DNA of 64,000 nt. It comes from a virus. Positions within the stretch are counted from its first letter, which is position 1; every line of letters begins with the position of its first letter. This document shows, in pieces, positions 2,572 through 28,183 of this stretch. Position numbers and translations under genes: made by a program. The DNA is taken from positions 1-64,000 of the IMG/VR virus record IMGVR_UViG_3300044946_000220. One strand, written 5' to 3'. The notes below the pieces were generated by a model, which did no database searches, was not told where the DNA came from, and saw nothing but the letters and a program-made list of their open reading frames with translations.

Positions 2572-3006
2572 TCAATCCTCGTAGGTTTCGTCTGTCAGGT
2601 AGTCATCTGTCGTTGGCGCCGGTTGCGCGTATTCGTCCGCTTCGGCCGCGGGAGGCTTCCATCCGGCCTTTATCTTGGCACTCCAGCCGCGGGCGCGGGC
2701 CGCGTCCTTCGCGCTTAGTGCGGCGTACTGCGATTTGCCTTCCTTTGGATGTTCCGCACTGTATTGCAACGCCTCTGCGTACATGTCCAGGAAGGCCGGC
2801 GGGCATTCGCTGAACTTCTTGTTCACGCAACTCACGCCGCGGTAGTTCTTGGGTGAAAAACGGACGATTGGGTTGCCTTTCGGTGAGGCCAGGTCCGCCT
2901 CGTCGGCTACCATCGGCACTGAGCTTACGGCTTTCGCCGCGATCAGCCCGTCCAGCTTCTTTTCCAGCCGCTGAATGCCGGCCAGGATGTCTTCGCCGAT
3001 GCCCAT
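2572..3006 (-). CDS. Recombination-operon protein, unknown
   Basis: 144 residues from ATG 3006, whose A is shared with the upstream stop (TGATG). It starts with a coiled-coil-like segment (ILAGIQRLEKKLDGLIAAK). The middle has SPKNYRGVSC and a segment YAEALQYSAEHPKEGKSQYA. The tail is acidic and Tyr/Asp-rich (DDYLTDETYED). Likely an SSB- or nuclease-associated factor by position only. Confidence 0.75.
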   Translation of the reverse strand: MGIGEDILAGIQRLEKKLDGLIAAKAVSSVPMVADEADLASPKGNPIVRFSPKNYRGVSCVNKKFSECPPAFLDMYAEALQYSAEHPKEGKSQYAALSAKDAARARGWSAKIKAGWKPPAAEADEYAQPAPTTDDYLTDETYED

Positions 3007-13014: not shown

Positions 13015-13374
13015 TCACTGCGCCGTTTCGTTCTCCGGCAGCGTACCGTCGAACAGGCTCCCATCGATCGCCTCACGTTTGATGGCGAACGGATGAACGG
13101 GGGCACGAAGTAGCGCCAGGAGTGCCCTTTCCGGCGTGTGCATGTCGTCCCCGTACATGTCCCAAAAGTAGCCTTGCCGTGGCCCATGGGAGTACCGCAG
13201 GAATGACTTGCCCAGCTTGACCACGCACGTGGGTCTAGTGTCCTGACGAGGGAACGGCGGCATGTAGTTCGGGATGATCTTGGCATGCTTCCGCCACGTA
13301 TCCAGGTTCCCGCTCATGTCGTCGAGCATGACGGCGAGAAGGCGCTCCACGGTGAACAGGCCCGGGTCAATCAC
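13015..13374 (-). CDS. Accessory protein, unknown
   Basis: 119 residues from GTG 13374, which overlaps the upstream stop (GTGA) and has AAGGA eight bases before it. Contains LFTVERLLAVMLDDMSGNLD, an aromatic loop YSHGPRQGYFWDMYGDD and a C-terminal LFDGTLPENETAQ. No family recognised. Confidence 0.65.
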   Translation of the reverse strand: MIDPGLFTVERLLAVMLDDMSGNLDTWRKHAKIIPNYMPPFPRQDTRPTCVVKLGKSFLRYSHGPRQGYFWDMYGDDMHTPERALLALLRAPVHPFAIKREAIDGSLFDGTLPENETAQ

Positions 13375-26015: not shown

Positions 26016-26381
26016 ATGCTGCCTGACGTGTGGAAGAAGCCGACGAAGGCCGAGGCACCGAGTGGATACGTCCTCCAACACCTAGACGGTGGAGACATTC
26101 CCGGCGAGCCTCCGTGCAGCACCATAGACGAGGCCCTGAGGCGCGCTGCGAGGCGTTCGCGGCTGGAGCCCACTGAGCCAGTCATGGTGCGAGACGCCGC
26201 GCCACCGAGGCGTATACGGGCGGTAGCGCAAGTCGGTCTGTCTTGGTGGGTGGCCACATGCAAGCCGTGCGGTGGAGGCGGCCAAGTGTCGTCGGCTGGG
26301 CTCTATGGCTCAAGTTGGCACGAGTGTGCACGATGCGGCGGCACGGGATGGGTCACTGATAGCGTGGCTGCGCGAGGTTGA
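26016..26381 (+). CDS. Protein with DnaJ-type Cys pair
   Basis: 121 residues. The last 45 residues carry CKPCGGGGQV and CARCGGTGWV, two C-x2-C-G-x-G elements as in DnaJ zinc centres. The N-terminal part is alpha/beta (YVLQHLDGGDIPGEPPCST, then IDEALRRAARR). Its final codons (AARG and stop) lie in a 17-bp sequence that recurs beyond the methyltransferase cassette. Confidence 0.7.
   Translation: MLPDVWKKPTKAEAPSGYVLQHLDGGDIPGEPPCSTIDEALRRAARRSRLEPTEPVMVRDAAPPRRIRAVAQVGLSWWVATCKPCGGGGQVSSAGLYGSSWHECARCGGTGWVTDSVAARG
26365..26381 (+). repeat. 17-bp direct repeat, left copy
   Basis: TGGCTGCGCGAGGTTGA at 26365-26381 recurs exactly at 28167-28183. The copies bracket the whole cytosine-methyltransferase/HNH cassette. 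The left copy is the end of the gene at 26016. Confidence 0.85.
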
Positions 26382-26382
26382 A

Positions 26383-26436
26383 ATGCTCACCATCGGCTCG
26401 CTATTCAGTGGTATCGGCGGAGGCGACCATGCCTAG
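26383..26436 (+). pseudogene. Displaced start of the cytosine methyltransferase
   Basis: ATG 26383 opens [13 protein letters not shown], the first 13 residues of a C5-cytosine methyltransferase, then runs four more codons to a stop at 26436. The same 13 residues are encoded again at 26851 with 14 of 39 bases changed, all silent except the start codon (ATG versus GTG). An HNH gene lies between. This looks like the original gene start cut off from its body. Confidence 0.8.
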
Positions 26437-26857
26437 GGGTGCTCTCCCGAAGACGTACGACGCCTCTCTCGTCGAGAGTGTCCGCGGACTCTACGCGTCT
26501 GGGTACACCCAGGCCGAGATCGCGCACTCTCTGAGTATCACGCAGAAGGTAGTGTGGCGCCTGATGCGTCGACACGGCATCAATGCGCGCGTCGCCGCAA
26601 AGAGAGACCGACGAGGCGCAAAGAACTCTCTCTGGAAGGGTGACCTCGCGGGCTACGCAGCCATGCACCTGCGCGTGGCGTCGGTTCGCGGGACGCCATC
26701 GATTTGCGAGGACTGCGGGACGACCACAGCGAAGCGTTATGAGTGGGCCAACCTCACGGGCCACTACGAGGACGTGAACGACTACAGGCGCCTCTGCGTG
26801 TCCTGCCACAAGCGCTTCGACGGCATCGTCCGGAACCTGCGAGGTGCCGCGTGCTGA
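26429..26857 (+). CDS. HNH endonuclease with HTH, inserted at methyltransferase start
   Basis: 142 residues, ATG with GGAGG upstream. N-terminal [23 protein letters not shown] then [12 protein letters not shown]-terminal zinc/HNH part: [40 protein letters not shown]. It lies exactly between two codings of the methyltransferase N-terminus, and its stop overlaps the second start. A free-standing homing endonuclease is the best reading. Confidence 0.85.
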
Positions 26858-27501
26858 CGATCGGAAGTCTATTTTCCGGAATAGGCGGCCTCGACTTAGG
26901 CCTCCAATGGGCAGGCCTTGGCCCCGTTGCGTGGCAGTGCGAGATCGATCCGTTCTGTAGAGACGTACTTGCGAAGCACTGGCCTGACGCAGAAATAGTT
27001 GAGGACGTAAGGAGTATTTCTGTCATGTCTGGAAAGCTAAGGAAGCTAACGGAAGAGCAGGTTATGGCCTCTGTTCGACGGTACTCTGCCGGCGAAAGTC
27101 TTGGCAAGATCGGAGATTCGTACGGTGTGTCAAGACAGTCTATGTGGGACTTACTTCGCAGACGCATGACGCTCCGTCCGCAGGCTAGACACGGCGCTGA
27201 AAATCACTTCAGCCGTGGCGGTGGTGTTGCCGACGAAGAGGCGCACGATATGGTTGAAAGCGCCATTCGTTCTGGCAATCTGGTCCCTAAGTGTTCTTGC
27301 GAGAAGTGTGGTTCTTCGGGCACATTCAAGGATGGCCGTCGCTCTGTGCAGGCGCACCACGATGACTACAACAAGCCTCTGCTTGTGCGCTGGTTGTGCC
27401 AGCCATGCCACCACGATTGGCATAAGCACAACAGGGCCATTAGGAAGGAGGTGCCCGAGGAACTCCCCGCAGTCGATCTGATTTGCGGAGGGTTCCCGTA
27501 A
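26851..27501 (+). CDS. C5-cytosine methyltransferase N-part fused to HNH domain
   Basis: 216 residues from GTG 26851. Residues 1-57 are the SAM-binding start of a Dcm-type enzyme ([40 protein letters not shown]). Then about 140 residues form an in-frame HNH module: an HTH ([18 protein letters not shown]) and [33 protein letters not shown]. The methyltransferase resumes with [13 protein letters not shown] and then hits TAA where the catalytic Cys of the PC motif should follow. The HNH part could also start separately at ATG 27025 (AAGGAG upstream). Confidence 0.8.
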
Positions 27502-27505
27502 TGCG

Positions 27506-28150
27506 TGCCAAGATGTCTCCTCTGCAGGCAAGCGGGCAGGTCTTTCTGGATCTAGGTCCGGTCTATGGTATGAGTTTGAACGAATCGTTTCAGAATCAAG
27601 ACCACAGTTCGTCGTCGTTGAAAACGTTGCCAGTGGCAAACGACTCTGGTTGCCCACGGTGCGGCGATCTCTGCACATGCTTGGATACCGAACCCGCGCC
27701 CTGGGGATTGCCGCCAGAGACGTGGGAGCCCCACACATCCGTAAGCGAGTCTTCGTTATTGGCTACCCTTACGGCTACGGGGAACATGTTGTGTCCAAGC
27801 ATGCAGAAGCATCGTGGGTGCAGAAACTTCCTGCCGACGCTGACAGCGAGCACATTCGACAGCAACGTTGGTGGGGCGGCGGGGAGGGTGGGACCGAAGC
27901 GTTACAGCCTGTACGGGATGGCGAGAGTCGGGATGCTTCCCACGCTGACGAGGCGCGACGAGAAGGGTCCTGGCCCGACGCACACGAAGGCTGGCCAGGA
28001 CCTTCCGCAGAGCCTTGGCGGCCACCTGTCGGCGGATTGGTGCCGGTGGTTCATGGGCTTTCCGGTGGGTTGGCTGGACGTCAACGGCGCCAACGGATCC
28101 GAGCACTAGGGAACGCGGTTGTGCCACAGTGTGCCGAGATAGTTGGCTAG
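27506..28150 (+). pseudogene. C5-cytosine methyltransferase, C-terminal part, frameshifted
   Basis: After TAATGCG (27499-27505) the enzyme continues in another frame: CQDVSSAGKRAGLSGSRSGL, FVVVENVASGKRLW, DVGAPHIRKRVFVIGYP. It has no own ATG or GTG start. From about 27765 the best match moves to a third frame (LTATGNMLCPSMQKHRGCRN, LPTLTRRDEKGPGPTHTKAG, WCRWFMGFPVGWLD). The last motif RIRALGNAVVPQCAEIVG is back in the second frame. The gene as read cannot give one active protein, so it is decaying or carries several sequence errors. Confidence 0.75.
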
Positions 28151-28166
28151 GTGATACGGCAGATGT

Positions 28167-28183
28167 TGGCTGCGCGAGGTTGA
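28167..28183 (+). repeat. 17-bp direct repeat, right copy
   Basis: Exact copy of 26365-26381, seventeen bases after the methyltransferase stop. It suggests that the cassette between the copies was inserted or amplified as a unit of about 1.8 kb. Confidence 0.85.

Follow-up and report, generated by a model that had tools for sequence, protein, structure and literature searches.

The stretch of DNA analysed here (the window, 64,000 nucleotides) comes from a virus record of 102,034 bases. It carries a C5-cytosine methylase gene whose start is duplicated around one HNH gene, HNH1, and whose body is interrupted by a second one, HNH2. The features are, in order:

26383–26421, + strand: upstream copy, the first 13 codons (5′ end) of the methylase that was presumably invaded, identified by translation and cut off just past SGIGG
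26429–26857, + strand: HNH1, a 142-aa HNH endonuclease with an N-terminal helix-turn-helix (PHROG 8446 HNH endonuclease, E=3e-19)
26851–26889, + strand: downstream copy, 13 codons opening with a new GTG start and extending through motif I, in the methylase frame and without insert
26851–27024, + strand: methylase N part, motif I to EDVRSISV (Pfam DNA_methylase, E=1.6e-7; PHROG 363, E=8e-20)
27025–27501, + strand: HNH2, a 158-aa endonuclease (PHROG 2340, E=3e-20) with its own ATG and an RBS-like TAAGGAG
27459–27496, + strand: predicted RNA hairpin, arms 27459–27472 and 27483–27496, the 3′ arm in motif IV coding sequence
27499–27505, + strand: TAATGCG, a stop and frame-breaking 7-nt insert between GGFP (CCG, 27496–27498) and CQ (TGC, 27506)
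27506–28150, + strand: methylase C part, CQDVSS ... ALGNAVVPQC (Pfam DNA_methylase, E=2e-19), 214 open codons in another frame

The preliminary description of this locus had reported that the same 13 codons occur at 26383–26421 (ATGCTCACCATCGGCTCGCTATTCAGTGGTATCGGCGGA) and 26851–26889 (GTGCTGACGATCGGAAGTCTATTTTCCGGAATAGGCGGC) with a complete HNH gene between them, and translation confirmed this. The two copies differ at exactly 14 of 39 nucleotides, as had been counted, and all residues past the start are the same, with three codons identical, nine synonymous and one different (the ATG or GTG start). Such a 12-residue identity on both sides of an HNH gene is not due to chance. As also described, the frame opened by the GTG at 26851 overlaps the HNH1 TGA stop (26855–26857); a GAGG lies upstream of this GTG, with 6 nt between them. 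The upstream copy is a stub, which runs for 4 further codons (..GGGDHA*) into a TAG stop, and HNH1 is out of frame with it. Motifs I, IV, VI and X of C5-cytosine methylases are all present (LFSGIGG, GGFP/CQ, ENV and LGNAVVP, respectively), distributed over two frames. The HNH2 interruption and the TAATGCG insert had been overlooked; because of these two interruptions the window methylase is not a clean working ORF. The whole HNH1-methylase-HNH2 block is bracketed by a perfect 17-bp direct repeat, TGGCTGCGCGAGGTTGA, at 26365–26381 and 28167–28183, the first copy of which forms the end of the upstream gene (..VAARG*).

For HNH1, as for HNH2, the Pfam match lay below cut-off only. The AlphaFold2 model of HNH1 had a pLDDT of 83, and its comparison with the PDB returned mostly helix-turn-helix proteins, none at E<=0.001. 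Relatives of HNH1 (45–71% protein identity) were found directly 5′ of C5-methylase starts in unrelated phages and prophages, at L003, L004 (AT-rich), L091, L095, L096, L114 (a Nocardiaceae MAG), L116 (Leucobacter), L158–L161, L163 and L178 and in the Gordonia phages Gudmit and Lton; none were found in plasmids. The duplicated arrangement also recurs. An HNH1-family gene lies between two methylase starts at eight loci besides the window (L004, L095, L096, L160, L161, L163, L178 and L197), making nine with an upstream stub, HNH1 or its remnant, and a second start. At L197, on the same contig as L226, only some 13 C-terminal residues of HNH1 are left, ~250 bp ahead of position 3001; this locus keeps a TGACC insert at motif I and has HNH2 downstream. 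The same layout was observed at another gene, since in L164–L181 (many near-identical isolate prophages) and L115 an HNH1 relative lies between two starts of a YqaJ-like recombinase gene (DRTKYLGGQ and DRSKLLGGSDVAGILG).

The upstream methylase copies at these eight loci all end at or near FSG[I/Y]^GG, which from sequence comparison is likely the cut site of HNH1. An empty and an occupied site could be compared in the Gordonia phages CheeseTouch (L153, no HNH) and Lton (L087, HNH), whose flanks are homologous. The native ATGAAAACCGGCTCACTCTTCAGCGGTTAC of CheeseTouch is replaced in Lton by the HNH gene and a start ending CGCACTGGAAGCCTGTTTTCGGGCTAT-TGAAC, and homology picks up again at GGCGG. 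Both kinds of junction, the stub ends and the CheeseTouch/Lton pair, locate the break close to the codons for I/Y and GG. For the window methylase itself no HNH-free close relative was found, the best methylase relative being at ~61% protein identity. Marks of a free-standing homing endonuclease are present in this set of loci, namely an HNH domain recognized by PHROG in both HNH1 and HNH2, and empty as well as occupied sites.

These observations suggest, with a probability of about 0.7 in our estimation, that HNH1 homed at motif I, importing the donor 5′ end and stranding the resident one, and that HNH2 is a second homing gene, at motif IV. HNH1 would be a free-standing homing endonuclease gene that targets the motif I DNA of C5-cytosine methylases (FSG[I/Y]GG) and sits, in the donor, just 5′ of this site. 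The nuclease would cut a resident methylase close to the codons for I and GG, and repair would copy leftwards from the donor, bringing in HNH1 together with the donor 5′ end (the 26851 copy). The left end would then be joined with little or no homology, so that the resident 5′ end (the 26383 copy) is left stranded. HNH2 would be a homing gene of a different family, with motif IV (GGFP^CQ) of the same methylase as its target. On the best reading of the sequences, the 26383 copy is the broken 5′ end of the recipient and the 26851 copy came with HNH1 from another methylase, which sets the presumed direction of transfer. Codon-usage scores of the two 12-codon copies were -0.00 and -0.09, a difference too small, with so few codons, to name the native copy.

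Because repair would have imported the donor start and stranded the resident one, the two copies would represent the 5′ ends of two diverged methylases and not a designed recoding. The preliminary description had instead read the silent differences as a recoding that protects from cleavage; a start rewritten to escape the element's own nuclease while the protein is kept would amount to a natural home-and-rescue drive. This reading is consistent with the different coding of the start in most loci, with its being still in frame in the window, L095, L160 and L178, and with the restored methylase 5′ end. However, the window copies share 3/12 codons (25%) at identical residues, and unrelated methylase starts share a mean of 0.36, or 0.40 for those with GC>55% (71 starts, pairwise); 23–33% of random methylase pairs had a codon identity as low as that of the window pair or lower. 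At L163, moreover, just 5/38 bases differ between the two copies, and in most relatives the site is broken by an insert instead. Since codon identity is similar to that between unrelated methylases and the L163 copies barely differ, selection for protection is not required to explain the silent differences, and this reading appears unlikely. The differences are best read as ordinary divergence between two methylase 5′ ends; the nearly identical L163 copies imply that some duplications may arise within one lineage. Of the earlier homing interpretation, the part that stands is that the HNH gene behaves like a mobile element and that the duplication ends at a probable cut site; the protective recoding does not. 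That the element brings a usable 5′ end is supported by Lton, where the native start is replaced by the HNH gene and a differently coded start. Recombination between two related methylases, which had been offered as the alternative, fits the data better than protective recoding, with the HNH gene as its likely cause.

The motif I site bears further changes, which in the relatives are short insertions, mostly with a stop codon. A frame-breaking insert at or next to this site was found in 11/16 methylases directly following HNH1 and in 0/79 controls (Fisher p=6e-11), the controls being fetched by C-terminal similarity only, with HNH genes disregarded. The inserts were TAT[TGAAC]GGC, TAT[TAAC]GGC, ATT[TGACC]GGA, ATT[TAGTC]GGC, ATT[TAGTT]GGC, ATA[AGTA]GGC and GTT[G]GGT, and L158 and L159 have one extra base after GGCTTT. 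The methylases following HNH1 in the window, L095, L160, L178 and L091 carry no insert. Sequencing error is an unlikely cause of the motif I break, as none of the 79 unselected methylases shows one; the single frame change among them (L028) is in a C8 run elsewhere. A pattern scan detected TGACC in ten distinct methylases, of which seven have no HNH1 within 1.1–1.2 kb upstream, two have HNH1 and the tenth, L197, has the HNH1 tail only. When 301 genomes from one family were scanned for the TGAAC site, the known one alone was found. In the GenBank records of Gudmit (L086, 2929–4314) and Lton (L087, 2917–4047), the methylase start is a GTG or ATG in frame past the break; the N terminus so annotated (VTPYVRNTPHRKPVFGLLNGG) is not conserved, and no annotation covers the conserved MSETLRTGSLFSGY leader and its RBS.

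At motif IV, an HNH2-family gene precedes GGFPCQ at 34 loci including the window (33 further), and the insert always lies between GGFP and CQ. In the window, the methylase N part and HNH2 share one frame, and the C-terminal residues of HNH2 are methylase motif IV (VDLICGGFP), followed by TAA. The N part is in the HNH2 frame in 31/34 loci, with a stop directly past the Pro codon in 31/34. The CCN-TGY gap measures 6–10 bases, and the triplet before TGY is mostly NCN. The window C part has no ATG, GTG or TTG start ahead of the catalytic Cys, and an ordinary start codon is lacking in the C parts of 32/34 loci. Several other observations were made on these genes. At L117, L119, L120, L121, L129, L131, L198 and L202 a sigma70-like promoter (TTGACA and a TATAAT-like box) and an RBS are found just before HNH2; they seem to form part of the in-frame codons that link the methylase N part to HNH2. 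At L125, L126 and L127, HNH2-family genes lie directly 5′ of intact methylase starts, outside motif IV. The window C part has two long overlapping methylase-like frames, 27501–28109 and 27506–28150, with FLPTLTAST..WFMGFPVGW in one and ALGNAVVPQ in the other, and L003 is alike (WPTPTAND.. vs VADADGER..); this is perhaps frame switching in the target-recognition domain. In the Gordonia phages L149–L152 and L157 (genera Vividuovirus and Leonardvirus) the methylase is annotated as a joined CDS, as split CDSs or not at all, and in L149–L152 an HNH or LAGLIDADG gene further downstream overlaps an open methylase frame. A short match to HNH2 DNA at window position 13031 (minus strand), where there is no HNH ORF, looks like chance.

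Introns often carry HNH genes, and a self-splicing intron or intein was therefore considered. An Rfam search of the window and 20 related loci detected no intron or other RNA family, the HNH genes leave little space for a ribozyme core, and the exon end is present in both of its copies. As for an intein, HNH2 has its own Met start and TAA end, and HNH1 and the upstream copy are read in different frames. Splicing of either kind is thus highly improbable.

The sequences before the breaks are prone to fold. In the 60 bases before the break, the fold z was -3.57 at HNH2 loci compared to 0.11 in intact methylases (n=34 and 52, p=5e-13), and -1.94 at motif I loci compared to -0.22 in intact ones (n=18 and 71, p=5e-6). 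The predicted hairpin ends at or just ahead of the codon preceding the stop. Its 3′ arm at HNH2 loci is the GGF-coding stretch and its 5′ arm falls within the codons for the HNH C terminus; at TGACC loci the predicted partners are the region of the start codon and the FSGI codons. The paired positions covary. For the 45-nt class of HNH2 loci, 90.6% of cells were paired (36–65% when slid), with two-sided changes in 7/16 pairs (0/500 shuffles), and in the 42-nt class 83.8% were paired, with two-sided changes in four pairs and a covariation score reached in 0/500 shuffles. The motif I arms, counted as arms only and joined via a constant GAAA spacer, were 91.7% paired vs 13–37% slid; here the shuffles gave a weaker result, 7/500 on the covariation score. 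The HNH1 copy of the window shows no such hairpin (z -0.97).

Taken together, relatives of both nucleases seem, from these alignments, to mark the same spots in dozens of phage methylases, where a short stop-codon insert, usually after a hairpin, seems to be tolerated. One explanation is that ribosomes skip the 4–10 nt in a hop or short bypass like that of T4 gene 60, which lies beside mobA, so that invaded methylases still yield enzyme. The interrupted bodies argue for it, since 100 codons past the break are open in 29/29 HNH2-interrupted methylases with enough sequence, while a simulated 5% neutral change would close 47% of such frames, and pN/pS is 0.43 in the interrupted genes, close to the 0.48 of intact controls. 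We used this comparison with intact controls as dN/dS in HNH2 pairs is not decisive alone. The absence of an ordinary start codon in nearly all motif IV C parts and the hairpin just before the stop at both sites, covarying at HNH2 loci, point the same way, and so does the persistence of TGACC in the seven loci without upstream HNH1 and in L197. In particular, L221 and L225 both carry TGACC with HNH1 absent nearby, and their first 90 body codons are 88% identical in protein, with a dN of 0.09 and saturated synonymous sites. Against a bypass, the insert length is variable, the landing codons are near-cognate only, no nascent-peptide signal is known, the 3′ arm of the hairpin would sit within the ribosome at take-off, and the product in the HNH2 case would carry an HNH domain. 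Furthermore, repeated fresh invasion of intact genes could mimic conservation, because methylase bodies were already conserved before invasion. Overall, bypass is an open possibility that we place somewhat short of even odds.

Alternatively, the inserts may be inactivating scars left by recent invaders forever jumping to intact genes. HNH2 proteins are indeed more conserved than their host methylases, whose bodies diverge more than the HNH (95% for HNH2 vs 56% for the methylase in L183/L187), insert length and frame vary, and in related phages the methylase has been described as non-essential (PMC11855218). Yet bodies are open in every HNH2 case with enough sequence, inserts persist without HNH1, the hairpin covaries, and the leader is more conserved than the HNH gene (98% vs 82% and 92% vs 68%; p=3e-4 and 3e-5). 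We regard scarring as slightly less likely than bypass. A third explanation is that the motif I hairpin hides the first ATG and sets the RBS by an in-frame UUG (ATTTGACC), giving a shortened methylase by initiation or re-initiation. At TGACC and TGAAC loci this UUG shares the frame of the methylase body, and folding of the hairpin would give it a normal RBS spacing; nevertheless the product would be without the FSG of motif I, there is no UUG at TAGTC, TAGTT, TAAC and AGTA loci, and such a start is unavailable to most HNH2-type loci, which makes it quite improbable. In its fullest form, our proposal is that two HNH homing families each mark their cut site in phage methylase genes with a mobile recoding cassette, an RNA hairpin and a short, mostly stop-bearing insert, that ribosomes pass it and still make the methylase, and that it can outlive the nuclease; we put this forward tentatively.

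In phage T4, the HNH gene mobA split the topoisomerase gene 39, and ribosomes bypass the gene 60 insert with the aid of stem-loops; this insert is 50 nt long, has a stop right past the take-off codon and perhaps protects from cleavage (PMC3014915, PMC5009743, PMC11194080). The loci described here resemble mobA/gene 60 in having an HNH gene upstream of the new start, a short leader ORF and the rest of the gene downstream, a stop directly past the last codon before the insert (CCG TAA in the window, and in the 31 HNH2 loci above), and an insert that is retained although the HNH gene looks defective. In contrast to gene 60, the inserts are of 4–10 nt and not ~50, the hairpin precedes the insert instead of lying inside the gap, the take-off and landing codons differ (CCG vs GCG in the window; triplets before TGC are NCN or CTG), and the HNH1 copy of the window has neither insert nor stop. 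Many hosts are involved, the gene encodes a methylase and not a topoisomerase, and bypass is here a candidate only. The ShiLan domain, an HNH hidden out of frame in actinophage methylases whose methylase frame is stop-free (PMC11855218), is similar in its location in a phage methylase, in the element end TAAC, in the T or S after the site in invaded genes where uninvaded ones have P, and in that no intron or intein was found. However, HNH2 shares the frame of the methylase N part, and the hairpin and the recurrent motif I and IV inserts are not described there; the ShiLan domain may be a different form of the type of element studied here. The mobE insertion in nrdA of Aeromonas phage Aeh1 (PMC2988022) likewise splits a conserved gene by an HNH gene. 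Unlike in that case, two separately made methylase proteins are unlikely here, because 32/34 motif IV C parts are without a start codon. The Gordonia phages Gudmit and Lton have the HNH1 family directly before the methylase at the same site; unlike the window, they carry the TAT[TGAAC]GGC insert and an annotated start in another frame. In the open-access literature we found no paper that describes the duplicated starts at motif I, the inserts with stop codons or the hairpins.

Homing genes without an intron are believed to adjoin their targets, or else to interrupt them at some cost. In the present loci, two families recur inside a conserved enzyme gene or at its beginning, each at one of the motifs that are conserved best, and the enzyme gene is open and conserved despite a hairpin, stop and insert at the putative cut site. 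If the sites are not passed by ribosomes, they would constitute a clean natural record of HNH cut positions and of repair copying in foreign gene starts. If ribosomes do pass them, these broken-looking phage genes are not broken and bypass becomes a testable and widespread process; short sites of translational bypass would then form a broad class in nature, and T4 gene 60 would no longer be the single case among phages.
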